Source: Thermoplasmatales archaeon BRNA1
GTDB taxonomy: Archaea; Thermoplasmatota; Thermoplasmata; Methanomassiliicoccales; Methanomethylophilaceae
Reading direction: 5' to 3'
Length of the DNA: 64,000 bases
NCBI GenBank assembly: GCA_000350305.1
Contig: CP002916.1
Coordinates: 992,001-1,056,000 of the forward strand
Every line of letters begins with the position of its first letter. Position 1 is the stretch's first letter. The notes under the pieces are model-generated. The model had not been told where the DNA came from. It searched no databases and saw only the letters and a list, made by a program, of their open reading frames with translations. Both the position numbers and the translations under genes were made by a program. Below, piece after piece: positions 1 through 18,591 of this stretch.

Positions 1-1102
1 GACCGGATATGAGCTCCCTTCCAGAAACGGTGTCCGCTACCGCCTGTGCGGCGGTCTCCAGGAGGCACATCTCGGTGCAGGGGCCGGCCAGGGTGTAGTA
101 CTGGTTACCCAGAAGGAGATCGGTATTGAGGTCTACGGCGGCCGCCACATGAGCCGCGATCTTCAGGGTCTCCCTAGTGGTGGTGGAACCCCATCTGATG
201 TGGATGGGTCCGTCCAGGTGCAGGTCGCAGTCCATCATGCTGAAGGATGCCAGAGTACATGCGATGTCGCAGATCGCGGTCTCCTCCATCCCTCCGCTGT
301 ATCCTCCGAAGATGGGCATCTGCTCGACCATGATGATGTCGCCGTTTGTCTTCCATCCGGCAATCATGTTCATCAGATTGGTGTCGATCTTCAGCTCGTT
401 CAGCTGGGAGCACTCGTGGAGGTCCTCCTTGCGCATACCCCATTCGGTGAGATCTGCGCTGAGACGTCCCGCGGATGACAGCGGGGTCTCCGGGCCCTAG
501 ATCCCCATCCCGGGGCGTCCGCATAGGGAACATGCTTCGCGTATGTGCCTGATCTCGGCAAGGGTGGCGCGGATCTCCCAGGGAGTGTTGGTCGAAGATG
601 CCTGATGGCAGACGGTATCGAGGACGCCGCTGACGATGGTATCGACGACAGGCTCCTGTGCGTAGGACCGGATCATCTCGGAGAATATGTCCTCGGAAAC
701 GGGGGCACCGGTAGGTCCGGCCTCGATTATCGGGGCCTTGGGGACGTTACCCTGTCTGGCCTCACAGACCACCATGTCCTTCCCGCTCCCCAGTCTGAGG
801 CGCTTGGGGGCACGGCGGATCCCCTCGAGGATCTCGTCCTCGGTTAGATACAGGACCCTTCCGAGCGTGGTGTTGTAGAATCCGGTGGTAACGAGCATGT
901 CCAGGCCTGCCTGGAACAGGCGATCGCAGAGGTCCTCGTCCTCCGGTACGATATCGTCGGTGAAGTTGATGTCGTATTTCTCCTTCATCGCCAGGGCGTT
1001 GGTGGGTACGGTAACGTAATCCCAGGCATCCTCGCGCACCTTTTTCCCGTTGTTGAAACGAGTATATGCATCGAAAATATCAACACATTTGGGCGCGGTC
1101 AT
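1..1102 (-). CDS. mtmB: Monomethylamine methyltransferase MtmB, second copy (3' end outside window)
   Basis: Transfers the methyl group of monomethylamine to the Co(I) corrinoid of MtmC. The first 201 codons read as MtmB, then a TAG lies at 497-499 (codon 202), exactly where MtmB carries pyrrolysine. The frame continues as MtmB (CSQLNELK, MPIFGGYSGGMEETAIC, HIRWGSTT) to the window edge, so the C-terminus is missing here. An AGAGG ribosome-binding site lies 7 nt before the ATG. It lies 175 bp downstream of the first mtmB on the same strand, behind two strong hairpins, and is clearly diverged from it. The TAG is read as pyrrolysine, not as a pseudogene break, because four methyltransferase genes share the feature at family-specific positions. 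Confidence 0.93.
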
Positions 1103-1183
1103 TCAGAGTCCTCTTTCGACAGTGCGGGTACCTTGGTATCGGGCGATTGGCGTTCCATGCTATGACCTGTTAAATGGGAGAAT

Positions 1184-1243
1184 GCCCCCAGAGAAAGGGG
1201 GCGAGATGGCTTTCCCCGGGGTCGAGAGGAGAAGGCCCCGGGG
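1184..1243 (-). terminator. Two GC hairpins between the mtmB copies
   Basis: A GCCCCC/GGGGGC stem (1184-1189 with 1197-1202) is followed by a CCCCGGGG/CCCCGGGG stem (1214-1221 with 1236-1243). They lie between the stop of the upstream mtmB (1278) and the start of the downstream mtmB (1102). No clear T-run follows either one, so they could be a partial terminator or an mRNA processing/stability element that sets the ratio of the two copies. Confidence 0.5.
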
Positions 1244-1277
1244 GTAAATGGTTTCCGAAGGTAGTGTTTCTTGACGA

Positions 1278-2663
1278 TCAGTGCTTGATGGGCAGTCCGG
1301 CGTCGCGGAGGTGCTGCATTGCCTTGTCGTAGACGTCCAGGTACTCCTGGGTCGGCTTGACGGTGAGGACATCGTAGCACTCCTGGAACCTCTTTCCGGC
1401 AGGAGCGTCGTTGTAGTGCTGCTCGTACTCGGAGACGAGGGTCTCGATGATCTCGTTGAGGTCGGAGACCTTCATTCCGGCTGCGGTCATTGCGGCGACT
1501 CCCATTGCGCGGGCTTCCATTCCGGTGGTCTTGTCCTGGACGACTCCCTTTGCGGCTGCGGATCCGGAGAGGAGCTCCCTTCCGGAACCGGTGTCGTTGA
1601 TCGCCTGGACGGCGGTCTCGATGAGGCACATCTCGGTGCAGGGTCCAGCCATCGGGTAGTACTGGTTGGCCAGCAGCAGGTCGGTGTTGTTGTCGACTGC
1701 GGCGCAGGCGTGTGCTGCGATCTGCAGGGACTCCCTGTTGGTGGTGGTTCCCCAGCGGATGTGGATAGGTCCGTCGAGGTGGAAGTTTCCGTTGAAGAGT
1801 GCGAAGGATGCAAGGGTGGTTGCAACGTCGCAGATTGCGGTCTCCTCCATTCCTCCGGTGTATCCACCGAAGATGGGCATCTGCTCGATCATGATGGTGT
1901 CTCCGTTGACGGTCCATCCGGCGAGCATGTTCAGTCCGCACATGTCCATCTTGAGCTCGTTGAGCTGGGAGCACTCGTGGGCGTCGGTGACGCGGTGTCC
2001 GGCGTGCTTCATGTCAGCGGCGAGACGAGCAGCCTCGGTCAGAGGGGTCTCAGGTCCCTATACACCGAGTCCGGGGCGTCCGGCCCTCTCACGTGCTTCC
2101 TGGGTAGCCCTGAGCTCCGCCATGGTGGCGCGGATCTCGTAGGGGGTTCCGGATTTAGCGGGGTGTCCCTCGAGGGTGGTCATGACACCGTCGACGAGGT
2201 CGTCGACGACTGCTTCCTGGGCGTAGGACTGCATGACCTGGACGAAGACGTCCTCGGAAATCGGGGATCCGGTAGGTCCTCCCTGGATGATGGGCTTGAC
2301 GGGGCTGTTGCCGTGCCTCGGGTAGAAGCGGGCGATGTCCCTTCCCTCTCCGAGGATGAGCTTCTTGGGGGTCTTGTAGATTCCCTCCCAGACCTCTTCC
2401 TCAGTGACGTGCATGACCTTCTTCATGTCAGTGCAGTAGAATCCGGTCTCGACGAGCATCTCGAGTCCGGCCTGGAACAGGGCGTTCTTGGACTCGTTGT
2501 CCTCGGGGATGAACTCGTTTCCGAAGTCGATCTTGTACTTCTCTTTCAGGGCGGTCGCGTTCTGAGGGATGATGGTGTAGTCCCACTCGCTCTCCTCGAC
2601 TTTCTTTCCCTTCTTGAACCTGTCAAATGTGTCGCAAACGGTCAGTGCTCTGGTTGCTGCCAT
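1278..2663 (-). CDS. mtmB: Monomethylamine methyltransferase MtmB, first copy (pyrrolysine protein)
   Basis: Full-length MtmB of 461 residues if the TAG at 2058-2060 (codon 202) is read as pyrrolysine. The family is about 458 residues with Pyl202. Pyrrolysine binds the ammonium adduct of monomethylamine and presents the methyl group to the corrinoid of MtmC. Sequence on both sides of the TAG is MtmB in one frame, so no frameshift is needed. AGAGGT lies about 6 nt before the ATG. It follows mtmC by 30 bp and is surely cotranscribed with it. A TGA ends the gene. Confidence 0.96.
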
Positions 2664-2693
2664 ATTGATACCTCTGCTTCAACCTCTTGGTGT

Positions 2694-3332
2694 TCAGCTC
2701 ATCAGCTTGTCGCAAAGTCCGATGATCTCTGCACCGGTCTCGGAGTATCCGTCTGCTCCGATCTCGTCGCACCACTCCTTGGAGCAGGGTGCTCCTCCGA
2801 AGATGCACTTGTAGTTGCCACCGGCCTCCTTGTTGGCGATGACGAGCTCCCTCTGTGCCTCGAGGGTGGTGGTCATGAGAGCAGATCCTCCGAGGATGGT
2901 CGCATCGTTGTCCTCGGCTGCCTCCAGGAATGCGTCAGAGTCTGCGTCGGGTCCGATGTCGATAACGTTGTATCCGGCTCCGCGGAGCATGGCGCAGCAG
3001 ACGTTCTTTCCGATCTCGTGGATGTCTCCCTCGACGGTTCCCATGACAACGGTTCCCTTGGTGACTCCTCCGGATCCGGCCATCAGAGGCTCGAGCATCT
3101 TGAGTGCGACCTCCATGGTCTTGGAAGCTGCAACGACCTGAGGCAGGTAGATTTCTGCCGCGTCGAAGCGGACTCCGATGGTCTCCATTCCCTTTCCGAG
3201 TCCCTTGTCCATGATGTCGTTGACAGGGATCTTCGCATCGATTGCTTTCTGGGTGGCCTCCTTAACGAGGGCAACGTTCCAAGTCTCGATGGACTTTTTC
3301 AGATCGGCGATAATTGCGTCAGTGTCGCTCAT
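2694..3332 (-). CDS. mtmC: Monomethylamine corrinoid protein MtmC
   Basis: Carries the cobamide that accepts the methyl group from MtmB and passes it to MtbA/coenzyme M. 212 residues, normal for the family: an N-terminal helical cap (about 1-90), then a B12-binding Rossmann domain with the GDIHEIGKN motif whose His105 is the lower cobalt ligand, and a GGSALM segment further on. First gene of the mtmC-mtmB-mtmB operon. Its TATA (CTTTATATAC on the minus strand, 3428-3437) gives a leader of roughly 75 nt. Confidence 0.95.
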   Translation of the reverse strand: MSDTDAIIADLKKSIETWNVALVKEATQKAIDAKIPVNDIMDKGLGKGMETIGVRFDAAEIYLPQVVAASKTMEVALKMLEPLMAGSGGVTKGTVVMGTVEGDIHEIGKNVCCAMLRGAGYNVIDIGPDADSDAFLEAAEDNDATILGGSALMTTTLEAQRELVIANKEAGGNYKCIFGGAPCSKEWCDEIGADGYSETGAEIIGLCDKLMS

Positions 3333-3791
3333 TTTTTACCTCTCCATGACAAACCTTGGTCCGCTCTTTTGCCGTAAGGCTCCGGAGCGCACTCTATTTT
3401 TGTCTGAATAATAGATTGATTAGGTGTGTATATAAAGATTGCTACGTACAGGTAATGTCCCTTGAATACTATATTTATACTTTACGAATTTGCCCATTTT
3501 TTCTATATTCTAAATTTATTTTTAGACATATATCTAATATTTCAATAATTAACAATTATTTGTTGCTATTTTTTAGTTGATACCAAAACATATGTATTGT
3601 TTTTTCATTTTTTACTAAAATCAACAAAACATACATTTATATACTATTATTTTTGACTTTTTGAATTAACAGTATGTTTTAAATACAACATATTAAAAGA
3701 ACATAATTGTCCCCAATATATGCGACCTAACAACTCTATAATAGAGTATAGTAGAAGAATGAAAAAGGGGAAGCGGTTTGGAAGAGAAGGA
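3333..3791. other. AT-rich intergenic region upstream of mtmC
   Basis: No convincing gene. It holds the mtmC promoter (TATA at 3428-3437), a second AT-rich TATA-like stretch near 3480-3500, long runs of A/T, and a perfect palindrome ACTCTAT-A-ATAGAGT at 3733-3747. That palindrome lies about 45 bp past the end of the SMR operon and 400 bp upstream of mtmC. A related ACTC-AATA-GAGT dyad is found in the leader of the transporter operon (6195-6206). Confidence 0.6.
3733..3747. promoter_or_regulatory. Perfect palindrome ACTCTAT-A-ATAGAGT
   Basis: A 7-1-7 perfect inverted repeat between the methylamine transporter operon and the mtmC promoter region. The half-site ACTC/GAGT recurs in the dyad at 6190-6210 in front of the transporter operon. 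The winged-helix protein encoded in that operon is a candidate binder. This is inference; the palindrome could also form a hairpin. Confidence 0.35.
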
Positions 3792-4178
3792 TCACTCCTT
3801 CTCTTCGGGCTTCGGGTCGAGGTATTCGACGGGAGTTGCCTTGAGTCCGACGACCCCGGCGATTGTCACCATAAGGCACAGCGCCATGGCGATCGTGATG
3901 GTCTCGAGACCGAGCAGATGCGACACTACGACCGTAAGCACCACTCCGACTCCGATCCATACCGCGTATGCGGTGGTGAACGCTATGCCGTTGCGCATGG
4001 GCCACTCCATGCACACCATGCTGATGACCAGAAATACAATGGTTACCAGGTCCCAGCCGATGTTGGTGAAACTGTCGGTGTAGTCCACTCCGATGGACCA
4101 TCCGATCTGGAAGACTCCTCCCATGACCAAGACGATCCATGCGACGGCGAGCCTCGACTTTCCTTCAAGCGTGACCAT
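3792..4178 (-). CDS. SMR-family membrane protein with Gln in place of the conserved Glu
   Basis: A four-helix small multidrug resistance protein of 128 residues, partner of the next upstream SMR gene (stop/start overlap TGATG). The first helix reads GGVFQIGWSIG, so Gln24 occupies the position of the membrane glutamate (Glu14 in EmrE, Glu13 in Gdx/SugE) that binds substrate and protons. The pair is therefore likely an asymmetric heterodimer in which only the partner carries the charge. Known two-gene SMR pumps include EbrAB and NepAB; NepAB exports methylated amines. Its place between two methylamine operons suggests an amine substrate, which is inference. It ends with a short charged tail. 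Confidence 0.8.
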   Translation of the reverse strand: MVTLEGKSRLAVAWIVLVMGGVFQIGWSIGVDYTDSFTNIGWDLVTIVFLVISMVCMEWPMRNGIAFTTAYAVWIGVGVVLTVVVSHLLGLETITIAMALCLMVTIAGVVGLKATPVEYLDPKPEEKE

Positions 4179-4516
4179 CAGAACACACCTCCGGAAACCA
4201 GTCTGACGCCGATTATGCCGGCTACGATCATCCCGACGAACATCATCCTGCGGGGTGTGAGCTTCTCGCGGTAGAGCACACGGCCGATTACCACGATACC
4301 GATGGCTCCGATTCCCGCTAGGATGGCGTAGGATACTCCGGGACCGATGACCGCGACCGCAACTGCAAGAAGGTATAGGCAGAGCAGCACCAGAACGACG
4401 GCTGCGATTCCCCAGCCCTTGTACTTGAAGTTCTCGGACTTGTCCAAGCAGGTAACCCAGATCGGTTCGATGATACTAGCGACCAGTAAAACGATCCAGG
4501 CCGTCATCTCTTCCAT
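4178..4516 (-). CDS. SMR-family transporter subunit (EmrE/Gdx-like)
   Basis: 112 residues with four predicted membrane helices. Helix 1 contains SIIEPIWVTCLDKSENF, closely like the Gdx/SugE signature, with Glu17 at the position of the essential membrane carboxylate. It is start-coupled to the Gln-carrying SMR gene downstream, and GAGGGG precedes its ATG. It probably forms a heterodimeric antiporter or importer for a small cation. Guanidinium and quaternary amines are known SMR substrates. Methylammonium transport is suggested only by the neighbourhood. Confidence 0.85.
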   Translation of the reverse strand: MEEMTAWIVLLVASIIEPIWVTCLDKSENFKYKGWGIAAVVLVLLCLYLLAVAVAVIGPGVSYAILAGIGAIGIVVIGRVLYREKLTPRRMMFVGMIVAGIIGVRLVSGGVF

Positions 4517-4575
4517 GTAATCCCCTCGGAAGGTAAAGATGGTTCAGAGGGCCGAGGCCCCCTGTTGAAGTTTCA

Positions 4576-4719
4576 TCACAGCTGACTGTACATCCACCTT
4601 GCGATATACAGTCCGACAAAAGCGACCGCGACGATGAACACGGTGCTGACAATGTCGGATGCAGGGATGATTCCGCTGTCAAAGAAGTCGGAATACGCTT
4701 CCCAGTTAACATTTGCCAT
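4576..4719 (-). CDS. 47-residue single-helix membrane protein
   Basis: A small gene in the 213-bp gap between the winged-helix gene and the SMR pair. ATG at 4717-4719 and TGA at 4576-4578; the protein begins MANVNWEAYSDFF. A polar, acidic N-terminus of about 22 residues precedes one hydrophobic helix (VSTVFIVAVAFVGLYIA) and a short RWMYSQL tail. AGGTG lies upstream of the ATG. I do not recognise a family. Its position suggests a small accessory subunit of the DMT or SMR transporter. Confidence 0.6.
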   Translation of the reverse strand: MANVNWEAYSDFFDSGIIPASDIVSTVFIVAVAFVGLYIARWMYSQL

Positions 4720-4729
4720 ATATCACACC

Positions 4730-5053
4730 TCACTCATCAGGCACATAGCACCTGACCTTGGCCTTGAGCTCGTTCAGCGTGTCCCTTCCGTAGGGAGTAA
4801 TCTCATACTTGGTGAGAAGTCTCCCGGGGTGCTTGGAGTCGAACCTGGATCCATCGGTGTCGATGTCCCACTCGATCTCCTTGCAGAAACCTGCCGAAAC
4901 GGTCTCGATGCAATCGTAGTTGATGTTGTCGCGTCCGATGGCTGAATCAAGATTGTACTCTCCCTTGAGGATGTCTACGATCTCGTAGTTCCACATGGGC
5001 TTCTTGTCAACCAGCTCGAGGATCCTGAACTTCAGCGGTGCTCCGATGATCAT
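4730..5053 (-). CDS. Winged-helix DNA-binding protein
   Basis: 107 residues with a short winged-helix fold: GAPLKFRILELVDKKPMWNYEIVDIL (helix-turn-helix), then a wing and the segment LLTKYEITPYGRDTLNEL that is typical of PadR/MarR-like small regulators. I chose the ATG at 5053 because GGAGGT lies 7 nt upstream; a GTG at 5062 overlapping the permease stop is the alternative. It is encoded inside the transporter operon and is a natural candidate for a local regulator responding to methylamines or their absence. Ligand and targets are unknown. Confidence 0.75.
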   Translation of the reverse strand: MIIGAPLKFRILELVDKKPMWNYEIVDILKGEYNLDSAIGRDNINYDCIETVSAGFCKEIEWDIDTDGSRFDSKHPGRLLTKYEITPYGRDTLNELKAKVRCYVPDE

Positions 5054-5054
5054 C

Positions 5055-6179
5055 TCACGCACCTCCCATGATAGAATCGTCCTTCAGACTGACTAGCCCT
5101 TCAGCATCCTCCGTGGCAATCAGGTAACTACCGAACAGACAAATCAGCAGTCCACCGATGGTAGGCAGCACGTGTGCCATGTCGTGTCCGCCGATTGCGC
5201 TGTCCACACCGAAGAACAGGACCATGAAGATGATCGAACACGCAGCGTAGAGAGAACCGATAGCCTGTCCACGGGCGACTCCGATGAACGGGAAGGACTT
5301 GTACCAGGTAACGTAGCACCAGGCAAAGGAGAATCCCAGCAGGAAGACGGCCAGCAGGATGTAAGGATCGGTAACGACGGTGCTGATGGTGGAGAAGATC
5401 GGGACTCCGCTGATCGCGAGAACGACACAGACGATGATCCACAGAATGGTCTCCCAGAAGAACCTCAGCTGGATTCCGATATCAGGCTCGCAGTAGTCGA
5501 GTGCCTTTCCGGCGAAGGTTCCCTCAAGTCCCCAGCAGATAGCGCACATGGCTCCTCCGAGAACTCCGAGGAACATGTTGGAAGACTCGGCTCCTCCGAA
5601 GATGGTTCCCGCGAAGAGAACGAAGGCTCCGACGATCATGATGATGACTGCGATGTATCCCCTCTTGGTAACCTTCTGGTGAAGGTACAGAACGGACATG
5701 ATGGTACCGACAAGGGCGTACAGGACACCGGCGACGGCAGCGAATCCCGGGTTGAGGAACTGCGCTGCGACATAGGTTCCGAAAACTGCTCCTGCTCCGC
5801 AGATACCAGCGTACACGAAGTAGACGTTGGCGGCCTTGAACTCGATGAAAGTTCTCTTCAGCTCACCGATCTTTCCAAGTGCTCCGTTCCAAATGAAGAG
5901 GATCAGGGTATCGATGATGGCGTTGACCAGACAAAGCAGGATGCAAGCCATCGTGTAGGTGACATCGTCTCCGTATCCGTCAGCAATCATGTTGTCCATT
6001 GCTGCGGGGAGGAAGTCGGGCATCTCCCAGATTGCATAACCGGGAACATACCAAACTCCCCAGTAGATAGCGCATAGGAGTGCCGCAATGATACCAAATC
6101 TGAACTTCTTCTTGTGATTTTCCTTGATGAAAACGTCAATATCCTTCATATTGGCGATTTCGGAATTCGATTCAGACAA
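5055..6179 (-). CDS. DMT/EamA-type permease, probable methylamine permease
   Basis: 374 residues with a charged N-terminus of about 30 residues followed by ten predicted membrane helices in two five-helix halves, as in the drug/metabolite transporter superfamily. It lies between the mtm and mtb/mtt operons. Methanosarcina mtt, mtb and mtm clusters carry permease genes (mttP and relatives), so methylamine uptake is the likely role; identity to those proteins is not established here. First gene of a five-gene operon, with TATA TTATATACG at 6228-6236 and a promoter box matching that of mtbC. Confidence 0.75.
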   Translation of the reverse strand: MSESNSEIANMKDIDVFIKENHKKKFRFGIIAALLCAIYWGVWYVPGYAIWEMPDFLPAAMDNMIADGYGDDVTYTMACILLCLVNAIIDTLILFIWNGALGKIGELKRTFIEFKAANVYFVYAGICGAGAVFGTYVAAQFLNPGFAAVAGVLYALVGTIMSVLYLHQKVTKRGYIAVIIMIVGAFVLFAGTIFGGAESSNMFLGVLGGAMCAICWGLEGTFAGKALDYCEPDIGIQLRFFWETILWIIVCVVLAISGVPIFSTISTVVTDPYILLAVFLLGFSFAWCYVTWYKSFPFIGVARGQAIGSLYAACSIIFMVLFFGVDSAIGGHDMAHVLPTIGGLLICLFGSYLIATEDAEGLVSLKDDSIMGGA

Positions 6180-6189
6180 TTGATTTCAA

Positions 6190-6210
6190 CCCCTACTCAA
6201 TAGAGTGGGG
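6190..6210 (-). promoter_or_regulatory. Dyad in the transporter operon leader
   Basis: CCCC-T-ACTC-AATA-GAGT-GGGG lies just upstream of the permease start and at the predicted transcription start. It could be an operator or a leader hairpin. The inner ACTC/GAGT half-sites match the palindrome at 3733-3747. Confidence 0.4.
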
Positions 6211-6227
6211 ATAAAATCGAGAAGGAG

Positions 6228-6256
6228 CGTATATAAGACTTTTTGGTCGTTCGCAA
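6228..6256 (-). promoter_or_regulatory. Promoter with shared box: TTGCGAACGACCAA-N6-TTATATACG
   Basis: On the minus strand a 14-bp box ends 6 bp before the TATA. The mtbC promoter at 11077-11105 has the same box (TTACGAACGGCCAA), the same 6-bp gap and a nearly identical TATA, giving 22 identical positions of 29. This implies a shared activator or a specialised TFB/BRE element for the two operons. Confidence 0.65.
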
Positions 6257-6368
6257 CTACATTTATATATGGTAATTTTTGACATTTCCGAGAATTGGTT
6301 TCCAAATGTGCCAGATAGTTTAAGAAAGAGCATTTTGAAATGCCAATTGGATATGTTCTCCATGCATG

Positions 6369-6417
6369 CATCCAACGGATCTGATGGATGTATCTTCGGC
6401 ACCAATTTATCCACCCG
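6369..6417. promoter_or_regulatory. Upstream element with CATCCA/TGGATG dyad and TTATCCACCCG
   Basis: CATCCA (6369-6374) and TGGATG (6385-6390) form an inverted pair, followed by TTATCCACCCG at 6407-6417. The same 11-mer TTATCCACCCG and a TGGATGTAT word recur at 11490-11510, upstream of the mtbC operon. Function unknown. Confidence 0.35.
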
Positions 6418-6588
6418 AGAATCGACCTCAGATGCGTTTTAACACATGATTACGGGCCTCCCCTGTCCAAACCGATCGCTGGCTAATGATGCCATCACAG
6501 GGCACGGCAGAGGCATGCACAAGAACACCTTTCGGCGTGTGAAACCAATCCAACAGAACAAGTGCCAGGAAGCGGAATGAGAAAAGTT

Positions 6589-6606
6589 CCCCGGTAAAAA
6601 CCGGGG
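6589..6606 (-). terminator. Terminator of the mtbC-mtbB-mttB-mttC operon
   Basis: A 7-bp stem CCCCGGT/ACCGGGG with a 4-nt loop, 52 bp downstream of the mttC stop. On the minus strand it is followed by AACTTTTC. Confidence 0.65.
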
Positions 6607-6657
6607 TAAGTGGTTTCAGGATTCTGGATCTTGTTTCGAAGACTCAGAGACGAACAT

Positions 6658-7317
6658 TCATCCCTTGACGGCCTTGACCATCTTGGCGACGATGTCAGTG
6701 GCGTTCTCGGAGTAGACGTCTGCTCCGATCTCGTCTGCCCACTGCTGGGTGACAGGTGCTCCACCGACGTTGGTGAGGCACTTGCCCTTCAGTCCCCTCT
6801 TCTTCATGATCTCCTCGAAGGCCTTCTGGTTGACCATGGTGGAGGTCATGAGGGCGGAGGTTCCGACAGCGATAGCTGCGTTGTCCTCAGCTGCCTGGGC
6901 GATGTCTTTCAGGGGGATGTCCCTTCCGAGGTTGACAACATCGAATCCGGCGACCTTCAGCATGATTGCGCAGATGTCCTTTCCGATGGAGTGGATGTCT
7001 CCCTCGATGGTGCAGATGACGAACTTTCCGAGGCTGTCTCCAGAGACGGAAGCTCCTCCGAGGTGGGGGGTCAGGATGTCGACTCCGGCGTTCATGGCGT
7101 TTGCAGCGGCCATGATGTGGGGCAGGAAGGCTTTCTTCTGCTCGTAGAGGTCTCCAACCTGGTTGATTCCCTTGGTGAATCCCTCAGTGATGAGGTTCAC
7201 AAGGTCAGCGTTCTGGGCGAGAGCGTCGTTGGCGACGGCTTTTGCCTCGTTGATGTTGTATTTCAGGACAGCCTGCTCGGCTCTCTTGTTCAGTTCTTCC
7301 TGGGTCATTTCACTCAT
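6658..7317 (-). CDS. mttC: Trimethylamine corrinoid protein MttC
   Basis: 219-residue cobamide carrier for the trimethylamine pathway. The helical cap is followed by a B12 domain with EGDIHSIGKD, His109 being the cobalt ligand. It follows mttB and overlaps it by 8 bp (start MSEMTQEE at 7317), which supports pairing with MttB rather than another methyltransferase. MtbC and MtmC elsewhere in the island are clearly different sequences. Last gene of the operon, with a terminator hairpin downstream. Confidence 0.92.
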   Translation of the reverse strand: MSEMTQEELNKRAEQAVLKYNINEAKAVANDALAQNADLVNLITEGFTKGINQVGDLYEQKKAFLPHIMAAANAMNAGVDILTPHLGGASVSGDSLGKFVICTIEGDIHSIGKDICAIMLKVAGFDVVNLGRDIPLKDIAQAAEDNAAIAVGTSALMTSTMVNQKAFEEIMKKRGLKGKCLTNVGGAPVTQQWADEIGADVYSENATDIVAKMVKAVKG

Positions 7318-8818
7318 TCTCCTCTCTCTTCGCCTTCTCAAGGTAGGCCTCGTCGGCCTTCTTTGCGATGGCCTCCATCTTCGCAAGTACGTCTGCGTCG
7401 ATGGGCTTGACAACGTGGTTCTTCTTGATGTCCATGTAGATGTCGTGAGCGACATCGATGACATCCTTGGATCCGGCGGCCTTCCAGTCTCCGAGCATGT
7501 ACCTGTCGAAGCAGGCGGGGTCGGAGGCAAGCTCGATGTTCTCCATGGTGGAGGGGTGTGCGATGAAGTCGTTTCCGACTCCGATCTCCTTGATGGCCTC
7601 AACAGCCAGGGTCTCATCGGTGACCGGGATTCCGTCCATTGCGCGGCGCTCCATGTTGATGATGTCGTTGTCGACGATCATCTGCTCGATGGAGAAGGTA
7701 ACTCCGAGCTCGAGCATTCCGGATCCGTAGATCATGTTGACACCAGCGAGTGCTGCGAACAGGGAAGTGATGGTCTTCTCGTGGGAAGCCTGTCCGTCGG
7801 GCACCTTGGCGTCGGTCTACATACCTGCGGTGAAGACGGGCAGCTTGTAGTACTGTCCGAGCTTCGCGACAGCTGCGGAGATGAGTCCGAGCTCAGGAGA
7901 TCCGACAGGTGCGGTTCCCCTCTTCAGGTCGAAGGTGGTGGTGGAAGATCCGTACCAGACCTTTGCTCCAGGAGCGACGAGCTGGGACAGAACGATTCCA
8001 GCGAGAACCTCGGCGTTGTGGGTAACGAGGGTTCCGGCGAGGAAGACGGAAGAGGATCCGCCGGCCATTGCCATGGACAGAACGTTGCAGGGGATTCCGA
8101 AGCGGGCAGCCTTGGAGATGCATCCGACTGCGTTGTGGGAAAGCTCCAGCGGGGAGGTGGGGCAAACGAGGCAGGAGAAGATGGGCTTGTCGCGTGCAGC
8201 CTTCTCGTCGCCGTGGTAGTATGCCTTTGCGATCTCCCAGTAGAACTCCATGTTCTCTGCAACGGGGTCGATGTGGTGGAAGTGCATGGTGGTGTTCTCG
8301 AGTGCGAGCAGGAGCTCGTGAGTGTCCTCGGATCCCTTTCCGGCCCAGTCCCTCGCGGAGACAGGCAGGGAGAAGTAGGAGAATCCAGGCAGGGCGTCGA
8401 TGGTGTGCGCGATGTCTGCGATGTCCTGTCCGACGGAGTCACGGGTCTCGAACTTGCCGGGAGCCTTGTAGTCGCACATCTGGATTCCAGTTCCGAAACA
8501 GGTGTAGTGGACTTTGCCCATCCATGCCTGGTCGAAGGTCCTGGACTCATCACGTCCGTACAGGGTGAATTTGTGAGGGCAGGTGGCGAGAGCGCGGTCG
8601 ATGACGTAGTTGGGGATCTTGACCATCTGGGTGGCCCTGTCGACCTCGCATCCTCCCTTCTCGAAGATGTCGAGTCCCTCAGAGTCAGAAACCTGAACTC
8701 CGTAGGTGGAAAGGATGTCCCTGGTTGCCTCATCGATGCGGCGGATCTCGTCGTCAGTGAACAGCTCGAATTTAATGCCGTTCAGCTGGGTCATTGCCGG
8801 GTAAACTGGCGGTAGCAT
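7310..8818 (-). CDS. mttB: Trimethylamine methyltransferase MttB (pyrrolysine protein)
   Basis: 502 residues with TAG at 7817-7819 read as pyrrolysine. Both sides of the TAG are MttB in one frame. I chose the ATG at 8818 (MLPPVYPAM) because AGGAG lies 8 nt before it and it places the TAG at codon 334, the known Pyl334 of MttB; an ATG 18 nt further upstream would move it to 340. The enzyme transfers a methyl group of trimethylamine to MttC. MttB also belongs to a large superfamily whose non-pyrrolysine members act on glycine betaine and similar compounds; the TAG marks this one as a true trimethylamine enzyme. Confidence 0.96.
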
Positions 8819-8888
8819 TTGTATTTCTCCTCTCATTGTTGTTTAAGGGGTTTGGAAGAGGTTTGGGTTAGTGGTTTAAGCTTCAGGC

Positions 8889-10298
8889 TCAGTTCTTGAG
8901 CATTCCGCGGAACTTCTCGCAGCTGTTGATGGTGATACCGAGGATCTTCTCGATGTTCAGCTTGGCTGCGATTCCACGGGGTGCACCGGGCAGTCCGGTG
9001 ACGACTCCGATCTTGAGCTCCTCACGGAGGTCCCTCATGACAACCTCGTCTCCGAGGTCCATGGTGGTGACTCCGAGCTTCTTGGCAACGTACTCCTTTG
9101 CCTTGTCGATAGTCATGTTCTTTCCGTACATCATACGGGCGACCATGTCTCCGGCTCCGCGGATTCCTCCCATTCCGGATGCCATGTAGTGAGTGACGTC
9201 CATTCCGCAGGGGTCACCCACTCCGATCTATACACCGTCGGCGTGTGCGACTTCGACCATAGCCTTGGAGCACCTGGTGACGGCGTCGATCGGCGGGGTC
9301 TCGAACATGGGGATTCCACCGACTCCCATTCCGAGGTCGACGTGGACAGGCAGGGATTTCGCGTCAACTGCAGACTTTGCGAAGGTGACGGACCTGGCGA
9401 GGTTCCATGCGAGGGTCCTGGAGGTGTTGGTGTTGCAGACGGTTCCGAAGACGTTCGCTCCGGCCTGCTCACACATCTTGATCTGCTGAGCGGGGAACAT
9501 TCCGGCGACGGACTTGCCCTTGTACTCGATGGATCCGTGGATACCCATGACGTTCTCACCGGCCATTCCGGCGTTGATGTACATGTTGGGGTTGGCCTTC
9601 CTGAGGAGCTCGATTCCGTTCAGGGATCCGACGAAGTCGGCGTCTCCTGCGGAGGCGATGGTGTCGAAGTCGAATCCATCCGCTCCAGCGGCGAAGATCT
9701 TGTTTCCAACGTACTCAATGTCGCGGGTGAGGTGTGCGGAAGCGAGCTCAGACATCTGCATGGACTCGTCGATCTTGAACTCCCTCATGAGGTCTGCGGG
9801 GTTTCCGTACGGTCCGTCAGGAGCGTAGTAGAGACCCATGTTGGGCATTGCACCGTAGAAGAAGGGGATGATGATCTCGTTCTGGATCTCCTCCATGGTC
9901 TGCATCTCCATCGCGATGACCGGCTTGACCGGCTTGACGGAGTAGTCAGAGTGAGCGAGCTCGAAGGTGTCGGATCCGAGTGCCCTCTCGTGGAGGAGAG
10001 CGGCCTCGAGCCTTCCCATGTCGACTCCGTTTCCGGAGTTTCCGTTGTCACCGGTGAAGTCGAGCTGTCCGATATCGTAGGTAAGAACGACCTCGTTTCC
10101 GGGCTCAACACCGACGACGCGGTTCTTGTCCATAACGATGTCAGCGAGCTGCTCAAGCTGGCTCTCGTTGAGGGCGGGGATTCCACCCATGTCGGCTGCG
10201 TCAGCGGTTCCTGCCTGGAGGTCGGCCATGATGGCCTCTTTGGTCATGGTGACGCGTTTTCCGTCTCCAAGCCTTGTGTAATACTCAGTGGCTGCCAT
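8889..10298 (-). CDS. mtbB: Dimethylamine methyltransferase MtbB (pyrrolysine protein)
   Basis: 469 residues if the TAG at 9228-9230 (codon 357) is read as pyrrolysine; Methanosarcina MtbB has it at 356. The start [11 protein letters not shown] at 10298 fits the family. Upstream in-frame Met codons belong to an overlapping reading frame of mtbC and were rejected. It methylates MtbC from dimethylamine. The 77 bp between mtbC and mtbB contain a strong hairpin. TGA at 8889-8891 ends the gene. Confidence 0.96.
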
Positions 10299-10341
10299 TT
10301 TGTTGCCTCTTTTTGTTGAGTGGTTTCTAAAGGGTTTAGCG

Positions 10342-10360
10342 AAGGGGCTTTGAGCCCCTT
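10342..10360 (-). terminator. Hairpin between mtbC and mtbB
   Basis: An 8-bp stem AAGGGGCT/AGCCCCTT with a 3-nt loop in the mtbC-mtbB spacer. Only a short T stretch lies near it, so attenuation or a processing/stability hairpin that lets mtbC exceed mtbB is more likely than a full stop. Confidence 0.5.
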
Positions 10361-10375
10361 GAGTGTTTTCCGATC

Positions 10376-11017
10376 TCAGAGGTCCTTGACCTTTGCGGTG
10401 GTCTCGGAAGCGGACTCTCCGTAGATGTCCGCGCCGATCTTGTCCGCGTAGGCCTGGGTGATGGGGGCTCCGCCGACCATGACGATGGTCTTGTCGCGGA
10501 CTCCGAGGTCCTTGAGCTGGTCGATGACGGTCTTCATGACGACCATGGTAGTGGTCATAAGGGCGGACATTCCGACCATGGTGCATCCGTTCTTGGTGAC
10601 CTCGTCCAGGAACTTCGGGGTGGGGACGTCCCTTCCGAGGTCGTGGACATCAAAACCTGCGCACTGCAGCATGGTGGAGCAGATCGACTTTCCGATGTCG
10701 TGGACGTCTCCCTCGACGGTTCCCATGACGACGGAGGCCTTCTTCTCGGTGGCGGCTCCGCCCTGTGCCTGAAGCAGGGGGTTGAGCTTCTCCATGGCCT
10801 TGGTCATTCCACCAGCGGCGGACAGGACGTGGGGAAGGAAGAGCTTTCCGCGCTCGAAGAGGACTCCGACGTCGGACATTCCGTCTCCCATTGCGTTGAT
10901 GATGTCGTTGGGGGCCATTCCGGCTGCGAGGGCCTTGTCGACTGCGTCGACGATTCCCTGAACCTTGTAGGCTACCATTGCGTCTTTGATTGCTTTGACT
11001 TCGCTCTCGAATGCCAT
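10376..11017 (-). CDS. mtbC: Dimethylamine corrinoid protein MtbC
   Basis: 213 residues. Methyl carrier between MtbB and MtbA. The helical cap (1-90) is followed by the B12-binding domain with [10 protein letters not shown], His106 being the lower ligand. GAGGAG precedes the ATG. First gene of the operon mtbC-mtbB-mttB-mttC. Its promoter carries the box shared with the transporter operon, and a perfect 7-bp dyad lies in the leader. Confidence 0.94.
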
Positions 11018-11034
11018 TTCTTTTCTCTCCTCAC

Positions 11035-11052
11035 GATAGGGCGCACCCTATC
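11035..11052 (-). promoter_or_regulatory. Dyad GATAGGG-CGCA-CCCTATC in the mtbC leader
   Basis: A perfect 7-bp inverted repeat with a 4-nt loop, 18 bp upstream of the mtbC start and at the predicted transcription start (TATA 11077-11085). It may be an operator or a 5' mRNA-stabilising hairpin. Confidence 0.45.
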
Positions 11053-11076
11053 ATTGAGTAATGAATCCTACTAAGC

Positions 11077-11105
11077 CGTATTTAACGTTAATTGGCCGTT
11101 CGTAA
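11077..11105 (-). promoter_or_regulatory. mtbC promoter with shared box: TTACGAACGGCCAA-N6-TTAAATACG
   Basis: Same box, same 6-bp gap and same TATA form as the promoter at 6228-6256. A shorter match, CGAACGG, also lies 8 bp before a TATA at 36494-36516, so part of the box may be a general strong-promoter element. Confidence 0.65.
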
Positions 11106-11628
11106 GAAATTTATTATAGAAGCAAAAACAGACAATAGATAGAAAAATAGATATTTACTTATAGAATAATAAATACAGTTTATTGTTGAAATTGCTCCTA
11201 ATGACGAGTTTTTTCATCCAAGGATCCCATTGTTTCCATCGTTCGTCTTCCATTTTTGTTTCTTTTCGTGATATTACTCACAGATGATTGGCATGAAACC
11301 CATACAGGCCTGGGCCTCACTGGTTCCGTACGCCCGTGTACAATATTCAATATTAATTGTAATTATAAAGGATACGTCTGGCTGTCCGGCTTCGATCAAT
11401 ATAACGAACCCCGTTCTGCAATCACGATCGGTGTATAGCGTCCATAAACTGCGAACACTCATCCAATGCATTTAGGATGGATGGCATAATTATCCACCCG
11501 TTGGATGTATTGAACATCCATCCAACAACATCCTACCATGCCCCTAGGCGGTGAAAAAGCAGTACGGATAGGGGGCAGATGAGCCTCATCCGACAAGTGT
11601 GAAATATCCGTCCCTCTATAAGATACCC
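11106..11628. other. Intergenic region upstream of mtbC
   Basis: No gene seen. 11106-11250 is AT-rich. 11330-11360 holds short inverted AT words. 11490-11527 carries TTATCCACCCG directly followed by TTGGATGTAT and an inverted CATCCATCCAA, echoing 6369-6417. A short TATA-like CTATAAG near 11615 lies too close to the next start to serve it as a standard leaderless promoter. Confidence 0.5.
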
Positions 11629-13053
11629 ATGGTCAGCAAGAAAGACGACAAAAGTGCCGGACAGAAGCTTGAAGAGAAACTTCTGATGAAATCGGAGATC
11701 CTAGCGGCCTCCAACAGCAAGCTTCTCGACGAATCCATGGCCTACGGGGAGGAATACAAGACGTTCCTCTGCCACAAGACCGAGCGCGAGATTGTCGACT
11801 ACACTCTCCCTATCGCCAAGAAGAAAGGCTACAAGGAGTTCAAATACGGGACCAAGTACAAGGCCGGCGACAAGGTCTTCTTCAACAACCGCGGGAAGAA
11901 CCTAATCCTCTGCACCATCGGCAAACAGCCCGTGTCCGAAGGAGTCAGGGTCAGCGTCGCACACGCCGACAGCCCCCGTCTGGACTTCAAGCCCAACCCC
12001 CTCTTCGAAACCACAGACATGGCCTACTTCAAGACCCACTACTACGGTGGCATCAAGAAGTACCAGTGGATGACCATCCCCTTGTCTCTCCACGGAGTCG
12101 TCACCCTATCCAACGGCAAGTCCGTGACCGTCAGGATCGGGGAGGACGCCGAGGACCCGCTCTTCTGCATCTCCGACCTGCTCGTCCACCTCGCCGGCAA
12201 CCAGGTGAAGAAACCCATGTACGAGGCCATCGACGCCGAGCAGATGAACATCCTCGTCGGCTCCTGGCCCGTTGACGACGAGAAGGTCAAGGAGAAAATC
12301 AAACTCAACATAATGCAAATCCTCAACAAGAAGTACGGTATCAAGGAGAAGGACTTCCTCTCCGCCGAGCTCTGCGCCTGCCCCGCATACCAGCCCCGCG
12401 ACCTGGGACTCGACCGCTCCATGGTCGCCGCCTACGGACAGGACGACAAGGTCTGCGCCTTCGCCCAGTTCAAGGCGGAGATCGACACCGTCAGCCCCGA
12501 GTTCACCACCATGATGGTCTTCGCCGACAAGGAGGAGACCGGTTCCGACGGACCCACCGGAATGAGGTCCGTCTTCTGGAAGGACTTCCTGGAGGATCTC
12601 GCGGAGGCTTACGGATTCAACGTCCGCCACGTGCTCCGCAAGTCCATCTGCCTCTCCTGCGACGTCAACGCCGCGGTAGATCCCGGATGGCCGGAGGCCT
12701 TCGAGCCCACCAACTGCTCCTTCCTCGGAAGGGGGCCCGTCGTATCCAAATACACCGGCGCCCGCGGGAAGTACAGCACCAACGATGCCTCCGCGGAGGT
12801 AATGGGCTACCTGAGGAGGATCCTCGAGGAGGCCGATATCCCCTGGCAGGTGGGGGAGCTCGGAAGGGTCGATGTCGGAGGAGGGGGGACCATCGCCTCG
12901 GAGATCTCCGTCCACAACATCGACACCGTCGACATGGGTGTCCCCGTGCTCTCGATGCACGCCCCCATGGAGGTCACCTCCAAGACGGACGATTACATGC
13001 TCTACAAGGCAGTCTTCGCTTTCTTCAATAGCAAGCTGCCCAAGACAATCTGA
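11629..13053 (+). CDS. M18-family aminopeptidase
   Basis: Cytosolic metallo-aminopeptidase of 474 residues from the ATG at 11629 (MVSKKDDKSAG). A GTG at 11599 would add ten residues and cannot be excluded. Metal-site motifs of the dinuclear-zinc M18 family are visible in order: VAHADSPRLDF, FADKEETGSDG, DVNAAVDPGW and SMHAPMEVTSKTD. M18 enzymes remove N-terminal acidic or hydrophobic residues from peptides and form dodecamers. It stands alone, ending at a bidirectional hairpin. Confidence 0.88.
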   Translation: MVSKKDDKSAGQKLEEKLLMKSEILAASNSKLLDESMAYGEEYKTFLCHKTEREIVDYTLPIAKKKGYKEFKYGTKYKAGDKVFFNNRGKNLILCTIGKQPVSEGVRVSVAHADSPRLDFKPNPLFETTDMAYFKTHYYGGIKKYQWMTIPLSLHGVVTLSNGKSVTVRIGEDAEDPLFCISDLLVHLAGNQVKKPMYEAIDAEQMNILVGSWPVDDEKVKEKIKLNIMQILNKKYGIKEKDFLSAELCACPAYQPRDLGLDRSMVAAYGQDDKVCAFAQFKAEIDTVSPEFTTMMVFADKEETGSDGPTGMRSVFWKDFLEDLAEAYGFNVRHVLRKSICLSCDVNAAVDPGWPEAFEPTNCSFLGRGPVVSKYTGARGKYSTNDASAEVMGYLRRILEEADIPWQVGELGRVDVGGGGTIASEISVHNIDTVDMGVPVLSMHAPMEVTSKTDDYMLYKAVFAFFNSKLPKTI

Positions 13054-15858: not shown

Positions 15859-16818
15859 TCAGCGGCGGATCTGTTTCCCGACGTCGCCGTACTGAGTGTA
15901 TTCGAAGAAATCCGACAGCCTGGGCTCCGACCTGCCCTTCAGTTCGACGATCTCGTCCCCGCTCTCAAGGGTACCGAACAGCATCTCCGCCTCCGGGTCG
16001 TAGGTCCTCCGGGACCTCTCCTCCGGGTCGGCCTTGTTGGCGTAGCAGTAGACGCATCCGTGGTCGCAGGTGTCGTATGCTCCGATGTCGATGTTCTTCA
16101 CGCACCTGCATCCCTCCCTCAGAGGGGTATCGAGCTCCTCGAAGGGTATGCCGAGGGATATCATCTGCCTCCTGTCGATGCATCCCGCGGGTTCGATCCC
16201 GTACGCGGAGAGGTCTCTGCGGGCGCAGCAGTATGTGAGACGTATTCCGTGCTCCGCCGCGATGGGTGCGAGAGCCTGTGCCAGATCGTCCATTTCCTTG
16301 TGGCTTACCGAACGCAGGTCCTTCCTGCCGCTGAGCTTCCCGTACATGTCCACGAAGCTGAAGATGCACCTGTCTGTGTAGCCCTCGAGCTCCCTGCACA
16401 GGAGACCGAACTTCCTCCTGTGATACTCCACATCGATCCTGTCGTTGAGGATTATCGGGTCGTAACGCCAGGCGATCCTATCCTTGCCGATCCTCGCCGA
16501 GAGCTCTTTGAAGGCATCGGCGATGTCCGCCTTGAACGGGACCCCGGGCTCGATGTCCTTCCCGTAGGGCGTAATCGTCACCTGGAAGGTGTACATGTAG
16601 CCCATCGACCCCAGCTCCTTCAGGTACGGCATCATCGGACGGGGGTCCTTGGTGATGAATATGAACGCGTCCACGTTCTTCCTGGTGAGGTCCACCCTGT
16701 AAACGACGGGACGGTAGATCGGGTTCCTGACCAGACAGTACCCCGCGCGCACGCGGTTCATGAACCATTCGGCATGGAAAGCCGGGATGTCCGTCCGCCT
16801 GCTGACGCATATGAGCAT
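15859..16818 (-). CDS. DUF1848-family protein with C-terminal cysteine cluster
   Basis: 319 residues from the ATG at 16818 (MLICVSRRTDIPAFHAEWF). The opening SRRTDIPAF and the C-terminal cluster GAYDTCDHGCVYCYANK are hallmarks of DUF1848. The CxxxCxxC set suggests an Fe-S cluster or a radical-SAM-like reaction, though the family's chemistry is not known to me. It is divergent from ogt/alkD with only about 50 bp between them, so a shared promoter region and a DNA-repair or RNA-modification link are possible. Confidence 0.75.
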   Translation of the reverse strand: MLICVSRRTDIPAFHAEWFMNRVRAGYCLVRNPIYRPVVYRVDLTRKNVDAFIFITKDPRPMMPYLKELGSMGYMYTFQVTITPYGKDIEPGVPFKADIADAFKELSARIGKDRIAWRYDPIILNDRIDVEYHRRKFGLLCRELEGYTDRCIFSFVDMYGKLSGRKDLRSVSHKEMDDLAQALAPIAAEHGIRLTYCCARRDLSAYGIEPAGCIDRRQMISLGIPFEELDTPLREGCRCVKNIDIGAYDTCDHGCVYCYANKADPEERSRRTYDPEAEMLFGTLESGDEIVELKGRSEPRLSDFFEYTQYGDVGKQIRR

Positions 16819-16870
16819 GCTGCACCCATCGTCGGCTATGGTTAAGTACCTACGACTCGATTTCCCAACC

Positions 16871-17338
16871 ATGGGAGAGGAACACATCGGCACATTCATG
16901 ACGGCCATAGGCATGGTCAGCATCGTCACCGACGGCAATACCGTCAGGGCCGTCTATCTCCCTTCTCAGAACCTGCCCGCGATGGAGGAGGGGACCGATC
17001 CCGTCATGGAGCAGGCCGTCCGCGAGATCGACGAGTATCTCGCGGGAAGGAGGAAGGTGTTCGATGTGCCGATCAGCATCGACGGGAGCGACTTCGCCGT
17101 GGACGTGCTCGTATCCATGTCGGAGATCCCGTACGGGGAGACCGTGACGTACTCCCAGCTGGCGGAGAAGTCGGGACATCCGGGCGCCGCCCGTGCCGTG
17201 GGGACCGTCTGCGCCAACAACGTGCTCCCAATCCTGATCCCCTGCCACAGGGTCCTTGCCTCCACGGGCATCGGGCAGTACTCCGGAGGGGTCGCCCTCA
17301 AGCAGCGCCTCCTGAACATCGAGAAGGAATACAGATGA
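16871..17338 (+). CDS. ogt: Methylated-DNA-protein cysteine methyltransferase
   Basis: 155 residues from the ATG at 16871 (MGEEHIGTF); an earlier in-frame ATG at 16838 is possible. The active-site PCHR (Cys125) follows NNVLPILI, and IPYGETVTYSQLAE and the HTH-like GAARAVGTVCANN are in place. It removes alkyl groups from O6-alkylguanine in a suicide reaction. Its TGA overlaps the ATG of the alkylation-repair glycosylase gene by 4 bp, so the two form one alkylation-repair unit. Confidence 0.92.
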   Translation: MGEEHIGTFMTAIGMVSIVTDGNTVRAVYLPSQNLPAMEEGTDPVMEQAVREIDEYLAGRRKVFDVPISIDGSDFAVDVLVSMSEIPYGETVTYSQLAEKSGHPGAARAVGTVCANNVLPILIPCHRVLASTGIGQYSGGVALKQRLLNIEKEYR

Positions 17339-18027
17339 ACCCGCAGGAGCTGGAATCCGAACTTCAGTCCCTTGCCGACGAGCAGTACAGGATTTTCAAC
17401 AGCAGGATCTCCGCCAGTCCGAAGAGGTCCATCGGGGTCAAGATGCCCCTCCTGAGGGGGATCGCCAGAAGGATAAACCGTGAAGATTGGAGGACCTTCG
17501 TCCAATACCCGTCCGAGAGTCTGGAGCACTGCGTCGTCAAGGGGCTTGTAATCGCCACCGCGAAATGCAGCGGGGACGAACGTCTGGCACTCACCGAGGA
17601 CTTCATCGGGGAGATCGAGGAGTGGAACACCTGCGATACGTTCTGCAGCGCATGGAAGATCGATTCCGGGGAGACCTCCGATAGGCTGTTCTCCAGATGC
17701 GAATCGCTCCTGGAGACCGGGAAGGAATTCCCCATGAGGGTGGGGGCCGTCATGATGCTCTCCAAATTCATCGACGGGGAGCACATCGGGAGGGTTCTGA
17801 AGGACCTTGGAGAACCACGCGAGAGTCCTGGCTACTATTGGGACATTGGCTGCGCATGGGCGCTTTCCGTGTGTTACGTCAAATTCCCGAAGGAGACCGA
17901 ACCCGTTCTGCTGTCCGGGAGGATCCCTCCCGCGATACTGAGGATGTCCCTGCAGAAGATACGCGACAGCTTCCGCGTGGAGAAGGCGGACAAGGAACGT
18001 ATCACGAAATGTGCCAGATTACTCTGA
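17335..18027 (+). CDS. AlkD-like DNA alkylation repair protein
   Basis: 230 residues of the HEAT-like repeat DNA alkylation repair family (AlkC/AlkD): helical repeats such as LEHCVVKGLVIATAK, EEWNTCDTFCSAWK and MRVGAVMMLSKFI. AlkD excises positively charged N3/N7-alkylated bases without flipping them. It is translationally coupled to ogt. The end overlaps the 3' end of the opposing gene by 9 bp. Confidence 0.82.
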   Translation: MNPQELESELQSLADEQYRIFNSRISASPKRSIGVKMPLLRGIARRINREDWRTFVQYPSESLEHCVVKGLVIATAKCSGDERLALTEDFIGEIEEWNTCDTFCSAWKIDSGETSDRLFSRCESLLETGKEFPMRVGAVMMLSKFIDGEHIGRVLKDLGEPRESPGYYWDIGCAWALSVCYVKFPKETEPVLLSGRIPPAILRMSLQKIRDSFRVEKADKERITKCARLL

Positions 18028-18591
18028 GATACGGCGTATTTCAGCCATGATCCTCTCGGAGTTCTCGGAACCCACGCGGGGTCCGTTCCTCTCGAGCCAC
18101 ATCCAGTCGCGTTCCTCGCATACCTGTTTCAAGTCCTTGGAGGTTACGGCGATCACCCTACCCTTGGGAAGGACATCGGCATCGATGATCATCTCCATCA
18201 TGTGCTTGGGGACGCATACGATGATGCGGTCGAACATGGTGCAGGTGTAGAGGATCTTGCCCAGGTAGTCCTTCTCCTTCTGGACGCGCTCGTAGTCCTC
18301 GGGAGTGGACATGACCTCCTCCGGGGGATAGTTCATGACCGTGTAATCCGCGGGGACGAAACCGAAGCGGCTGGAGATGATACCGAAGGATACCTCGCAG
18401 AGCTTCTCCCCCTTTTTCTCGCCGCTCTCCTTGACGGCGAGATCGAGCTTGGCCACGAGGTGCTTGACCTCCTGGCAGCGGCCGCCGAACATCTCGAAGG
18501 CGCTGGCGATCCCGTTCTTTAGGAATACGGTGGAGTCGTTGGTGAGGACGCACACAAGGGTGGGTGCTCCCGGATAATGCTTGTCCAGCAT
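18019..18591 (-). CDS. Uncharacterised 190-residue protein downstream of hypD
   Basis: I do not recognise the family. It begins MLDKHYPGAPTLVCVLTNDSTVFLKNG and contains a conserved-looking EVSFGIISSRFGFVPADY and a central stretch around MFDRIIVCVPKHMMEMII, suggesting an alpha/beta fold. Its ATG shares a base with the hypD TGA, so it is translationally coupled to hypA-hypD. A role in NiFe-centre or nickel handling is possible but rests only on position. It ends in TAA. Confidence 0.6.
   Translation of the reverse strand: MLDKHYPGAPTLVCVLTNDSTVFLKNGIASAFEMFGGRCQEVKHLVAKLDLAVKESGEKKGEKLCEVSFGIISSRFGFVPADYTVMNYPPEEVMSTPEDYERVQKEKDYLGKILYTCTMFDRIIVCVPKHMMEMIIDADVLPKGRVIAVTSKDLKQVCEERDWMWLERNGPRVGSENSERIMAEIRRISE

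Follow-up and report, generated by a model that had tools for sequence, protein, structure and literature searches.

A putative trimethylamine transporter unit and a one-glutamate SMR pair between the methylamine methyltransferase genes of Thermoplasmatales archaeon BRNA1

Gene order and promoter of the locus

The stretch of DNA analysed here (the window) comprises 64,000 nucleotides of the genome of Thermoplasmatales archaeon BRNA1. Between the mtm and the mtb/mtt genes, positions 3792-6179 hold five tightly packed minus-strand open reading frames encoding, in order, a DMT permease, a winged-helix protein (wH), a 47-residue membrane protein (S47) and two SMR subunits, SMR2 and SMR1 (Table 1). 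An earlier, sequence-only reading had described these five genes, and their existence, coordinates, strand and order were confirmed. The distances between successive genes are -8, +10, +59 and -1 bp, small enough to make a single transcript plausible. The arrangement is not a product of chance, given that the DMT permease has wH and S47 behind it at 32 distinct loci and that SMR2-SMR1 is kept in about 35 genomes. Adjacency at this locus agrees with the five-gene operon of the sequence-only reading, but relatives show two modules, with the SMR pair unlinked in about half of its genomes. In most relatives permease, wH and S47 are the tail of the mtb-mtt operon and not a separate unit, and in several ramA occupies the position of the S47-SMR2 gap. 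The description of the locus as joining two unrelated transporter types does not hold, as DMT/SLC35 has been treated as a distant relative of SMR in a review (PMC9574504).

Table 1. Features of the locus (window positions)
Feature	Position	Strand	Description
DMT permease (MttP), putative LicB-like 10-helix importer	5055..6179	-	374 aa, TTG start; EamA and LicB matches, MttB association
wH, winged-helix protein	4730..5062	-	110 aa, PadR-like fold; model, PDB fold search, fusion, alignment
S47, one hydrophobic helix	4576..4719	-	47 aa; behind wH at 32/32 distinct permease loci, alignment
SMR2	4178..4516	-	112 aa; central Glu17 kept, Cys46 and Leu66 at Gdx Ser42/Trp62; charge bias -5
SMR1	3792..4178	-	128 aa; Gln24 for central glutamate; Ser53 and Trp74 retained; charge bias +7
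S47-SMR2 gap	4517..4575	-	strong GC hairpin, no T-run; two-module boundary
TATA-like box (6269-6262) and CGAACGACCAA (6253-6243)	6243..6269	-	upstream of permease
Matching TATA-like box and CGAACGGCCAA	11092..11118	-	upstream of mtbC

The promoter of the permease had also been said to match that of mtbC. A TATA-like box and an 11-mer, CGAACGRCCAA, are indeed common to both, and the genome contains the 11-mer at these two sites and nowhere else. About 1.4 chance matches are expected genome-wide (an estimate), so the evidence is the position of the element and not its count. However, the match is short, the local alignment of the two promoters is not significant (69 of 500 shuffles were as good) and in the relatives checked the region upstream of the permease showed no such element, which counts against it as a conserved regulatory site. 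A promoter shared by the permease and mtbC is plausible but weak. Elements matching Rfam PYLIS, known features of pyrrolysine genes, lie on the minus strand at 7720-7819 and 9131-9230, in mttB and mtbB.

The permease and its two small partners

The permease matches Pfam EamA (7.7e-9; 36.4 bits against a cut-off of 28.2). Its TTG start at 6179 is supported by a congeneric copy (L082), which has ATG at the equivalent place behind an identical GGGGTTGAAA leader. Members of the MttP group combine an EamA match with linkage to mttB/mttC, and the permease has both. In M. alvus the gene at this place (AGI85867.1) has been named as the putative trimethylamine transporter (PMC4153887), mttP has been named in M. 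luminyensis as well (PMC5688252), and the gene order in the window agrees with that published for M. alvus. The permease is treated here as this published putative transporter, MttP, equated with it by locus position. The uptake half of the locus is thus largely known already. What appears to be new is the SMR heterodimer with its single carboxylate, and the invariable grouping of MttP, wH and S47, including the fusion.

The link of the locus to methylamine use, proposed from the sequence alone, was borne out by the distribution of the permease, by the M. alvus gene order and by a profile match to LicB. Among 147 genomes of the order, 54 carry the permease, and MttB co-occurs in 53 of these. 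At 61 of 78 places the permease lies no more than 6 kb from an MttB, the remainder being mostly on contigs without any MttB match. No member of the family was found outside the order in a 390-genome sample of the phylum. The expectation that relatives with the same methyltransferases should carry the permease holds in part: ten of the 147 genomes have MttB without it, against the 53 of 54 permease genomes that have MttB.

In a profile search against PDB sequences, the choline importer LicB was the sole convincing relative of the permease (5.6e-12), and LicB was also the best match in a fold search (1.6e-8). Trp40, Trp216 and Glu219 are invariant in the archaeal set and align with Trp and Glu of LicB. 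This relation, together with the aligned residues, favours a methylated ammonium as the probable substrate of MttP.

At all 32 distinct loci examined wH and then S47 follow the permease, including a paralogous copy in the same genome (L002) and a locus of the distant family f5 (L106). In two species (G034 and G035) permease and wH are one open reading frame with a linker, in one case in a single-contig genome. A second wH-S47 copy lies just downstream of the fused gene in G034 (L085:3508-3907). S47 had no Pfam match, and neither S47 nor wH reached the cut-off for any Pfam or NCBIfam family; the Pfam PadR score of wH (PF03551) is below threshold at 13.4 bits against 27, so that only a PadR-like fold is assigned. 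The AlphaFold model of wH is a winged helix (pLDDT 92) whose best PDB fold matches are PadR regulators.

The winged-helix fold agrees with the regulator proposed earlier, but wH may be no free regulator. LmrR and other PadR members control genes for transporters, and with the likeness of fold this precedent makes it quite possible that wH is an ordinary free repressor of the operon without contact to the permease. Against that stand the fusion in G034 and G035, the unchanged gene order even in the L002 paralogue and the f5 locus, and the sub-threshold PadR score. A protein that is fused to the permease or always adjacent to it suggests instead a permease-bound sensor or a membrane-tethered regulator. 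L002 and the sequence downstream of it (G000:C1:264174-270099, outside the window) hold a second permease-wH-S47 set, the permease 31% identical, next to a pair of MttB paralogues, only one of which has an in-frame TAG. This is perhaps a second methylated-amine system.

An SMR pair with one central glutamate

Both SMR proteins belong to the SMR family (Pfam Multi_Drug_Res, PF00893; 6.7e-18 and 3.7e-13; 50.2 and 65.5 bits against a cut-off of 23.7), with four helices and about 100 residues. SugE/Gdx is the best NCBIfam subtype for both and Gdx proteins are the nearest solved structures; by family and structure matches, the pair is derived from guanidinium-exporter-like (Gdx) SMRs. The genes are adjacent, overlap by 1 bp and encode proteins of opposite charge bias, the pattern of paired SMR heterodimers of fixed topology. 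Given that bias, SMR1 and SMR2 should be fixed antiparallel partners, and a homodimer of either is unlikely.

The sequence-only reading recognised the SMR subunits but overlooked their main oddity, a lost glutamate. Gdx proteins have the central glutamate in both subunits, whereas SMR1 has Gln24. Likewise the Gdx stack of Trp16, Ser42 and Trp62 is complete in SMR1, and SMR2 retains only Trp16. The pattern is invariant among the 34 intact pairs examined: every SMR1, even at 47% identity to the SMR1 of the window, carries Gln in place of the catalytic Glu, and every SMR2 keeps Glu with Ser42 replaced by Cys and Trp62 by Leu. Of the other SMR pairs examined in the order, nearly all are Glu/Glu with Trp62. 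A contig scan beyond the order gave at least eight Gln loci, all in Methanomassiliicoccales-type or related archaeal records, with Glu in all other matches listed. The invariance, together with a dN/dS of about 0.07-0.14 in several close pairs, rules out decay and points to purifying selection on the Gln state. A quick tree of few columns, with these three columns masked, recovered a Gln clade and a Cys/Leu clade with one change each; on this tree the Gln state arose once. Two genomes of genus g14 are intermediate, with SMR2 already Cys/Leu and SMR1 still Glu, indicating that loss of the supporting stack probably preceded that of the glutamate. Literature searches found no paper on a one-glutamate SMR pair, which does not prove that there is none. 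A divergent SMR pair encoded in the same genome (L074, G000:C1:918964-919592) is the exception among the pairs with Glu and Trp62 in both subunits: in one of its subunits Asp replaces the central Glu and Gly replaces Trp16, an independent oddity.

A review whose SMR survey excluded archaea describes the central glutamates of Gdx, Qac and polyamine SMRs as conserved, as essential and as fixing the coupling at 2 H+ per substrate (PMC9574504). EmrE is reported to require two glutamates, and mixtures of wild-type and E14Q protein lose resistance (PMC6805155); the E14Q heterodimer mimics the half-protonated, drug-bound state (PMC11133458). In MdtIJ, the glutamate of MdtI was the only one reported to be essential (PMC2716321). 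In Gdx-Clo, guanidinium exchange is reduced by S42A and abolished by W62F (PMC7695847). Considering these reports, a pair that has lost one glutamate, and Ser42 and Trp62 in the other subunit, should not be a normal guanidinium exporter. With one protonatable site in place of two, the simplest expectation would be that a monovalent cation is traded 1:1 and electroneutrally for a proton or a second cation, and not for 2 H+.

The Gln-type pair is linked to METHYLAMINES: MtmB is present in 35 of 35 genomes with the pair and MttB in 31, counts that are uncorrected for phylogeny, and no MttB was detected in the other four. The MtmB link falls short of significance when only the four genera with the Gln type are considered (p 0.09). 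Of 35 Gln-type pairs, 18 have MtmB or MttB/DMT no more than 10 kb away, compared with 21 of 90 other SMR matches and a rough estimate of 3-5% for random placement near mtmB/mttB; about half of the Gln-type pairs stand away from methylamine genes. Several genomes of genus g9 have the run mtbC-mtbB-mttB-mttC-mttP-wH-S47-(ramA)-SMR2-SMR1, and in G039 mtmC-mtmB follows immediately downstream of the pair. A glutamate synthase gene adjoins or lies near the pair in three genomes (L056, L058, L064), which fits an ammonium theme. A proposal that ammonium is exported by a neighbour of mtm genes was made by Borrel et al. (PMC4153887); an Amt adjoining mtm was considered here and discarded, the only Amt of the genome being about 100 kb distant.

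Ordinary-type SMR pairs also lie close to mtmB, at a distance of about 1.7 kb at most, in genus g8 (G055, G056, G057, G058, G063, G066, G069) and in G037, G096 and G098. SMR pairs thus seem to have been recruited to methylamine loci repeatedly. In L036 (7180-9180, 11074-13110), L037 and L039, hydantoinase/oxoprolinase-like genes flank a Gln-type pair and mttB, with a corrinoid-protein gene between. In three congeners (L033, L070, L072) the SMR pair sits between homologues of the window genes at 15859 (DUF1848) and 17335 (DNA_alkylation), a region spanning 15859-18591 in the window. That site is only about 12 kb from the place of the pair here, which has probably moved.

Possible functions and known relatives

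The reading that we favour, tentatively, is that two transport modules of methylamine-dependent methanogenesis adjoin at this locus. MttP, a 10-helix DMT importer of the LicB kind, would take up trimethylamine. The wH domain would bind the cytoplasmic end of the permease and either gate it or act as a membrane-tethered sensor or repressor, and S47 would be a small membrane subunit. SMR1-SMR2, a fixed antiparallel heterodimer of Gdx descent with one carboxylate per dimer, would move NH4+ or CH3NH3+ out and H+ or CH3NH3+ in, and so act on the ammonium left by demethylation either as a relief valve or as an exchanger of substrate and product. Counted in favour are the MttB association, the LicB relation, the published name mttP, the constant trio, the Gln/Glu split with its single origin and low dN/dS, the charge bias, the MtmB found in 35 of 35 genomes, the proximity to methylamine genes and the ramA in the g9 run; NepAB, a two-part SMR that extrudes methylamine, offers a precedent (PMC5029519). 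Against it are the SMR pairs away from methylamine genes, about half of the total, the four genomes without detected MttB, and the fact that NH3 can exit by diffusion. A one-glutamate pair could also be a poor transporter, as EmrE no longer confers drug resistance once one of its glutamates is replaced (PMC6805155). A more specific version is doubtful, namely that the SMR pair swaps product ammonium for substrate methylammonium 1:1, while MttP forms a three-part importer in which wH senses substrate and tethers regulation to the membrane. Overall, the sequence-only reading was right in outline for uptake, and its account of the SMR pair, control of internal methylammonium or ammonium, is plausible.

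Other functions for the SMR pair were weighed. It is unlikely to be a paired Gdx resembling YkkCD that exports guanidinium or methylguanidine as a chance neighbour of the methylamine genes, with the Gln subunit as a tolerated asymmetry. The SugE/Gdx models and structures and the Trp16 retained in both subunits point that way, but the Glu-keeping subunit has lost the glutamate-holding residues on which Gdx-Clo exchange depends (PMC7695847), no guanidine riboswitch was found in window positions 1-12000 or at seven other SMR loci, and a location near mtm/mtt genes recurs. Export of toxic amines, polyamines or quaternary ammonium compounds encountered in the gut, with an incidental methylamine linkage, would suit the roughly half of genomes in which the pair stands alone, and quaternary ammonium efflux pumps in these genomes are noted by Borrel et al. 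(PMC4153887). We regard it as distinctly unlikely, since 18 of 35 pairs are near methylamine genes and the pair lacks one of the two glutamates on which drug export by EmrE depends (PMC6805155). Monomethylamine uptake in place of export would be permitted by one carboxylate per dimer, through downhill exchange, and has the G039 pair upstream of mtmC-mtmB in its favour. It is nonetheless quite improbable, as this genome has three APC permeases, of a family found near mtm/mtb/mtt genes in relatives, that are better candidates for mono- and dimethylamine uptake and that weaken the SMR pair as the only monomethylamine route.

If the favoured reading is correct and the substrate is ammonium or methylammonium, it would account for the way in which methanogens of gut and rumen deal with the ammonium that methylamines yield, a matter of relevance to the removal of trimethylamine and to methane from ruminants. 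An electroneutral swap of ammonium for methylammonium, if true, would mean that transport costs methylamine methanogenesis nothing. The lost glutamate in one half makes the mechanism of the pump a new and testable question, and nature provides, fixed across about 35 species, a one-glutamate pair on which the role of the second glutamate can be tested. The MttP-wH-S47 unit provides a clear partner for two uncharacterised proteins.

To our knowledge, LicB has no wH or S47 partner. The LicB of Streptococcus pneumoniae (7PAF, 7B0K) has the DMT fold in common with MttP, but the two are about 16-17% identical, and LicB belongs to another organism and another pathway. The published MttP resembles the permease in its position between mtm and mtt/mtb genes, and the sections at hand of the two papers mention neither the wH and S47 partners nor the permease-wH fusion (PMC4153887; PMC5688252). 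For the SMR pair the nearest subtype is Gdx/SugE (Gdx-Clo, 6WK5) and its paired forms such as YkkCD, with which it shares the pairing and the opposite charge bias; unlike these, it has one glutamate per dimer and has lost Ser42 and Trp62 in the other subunit. NepAB of Arthrobacter nicotinovorans, a two-part SMR in an amine catabolic system that was reported to extrude methylamine, is bacterial and is likened to the pair here by description (PMC5029519). The spermidine exporter MdtIJ (YdgE/YdgF) is also an SMR heterodimer in which Glu14 of one subunit was reported as the essential one (PMC2716321), but it belongs to the polyamine subtype, and a later review counts the central glutamates and the binding-site Trp as critical (PMC9574504). 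The lipid SMRs ArnE/ArnF have naturally lost the central Glu, often for Asn (PMC9574504). Their substrate is a non-cationic lipid, whereas the pair here retains one Glu and scores as SugE/Gdx.
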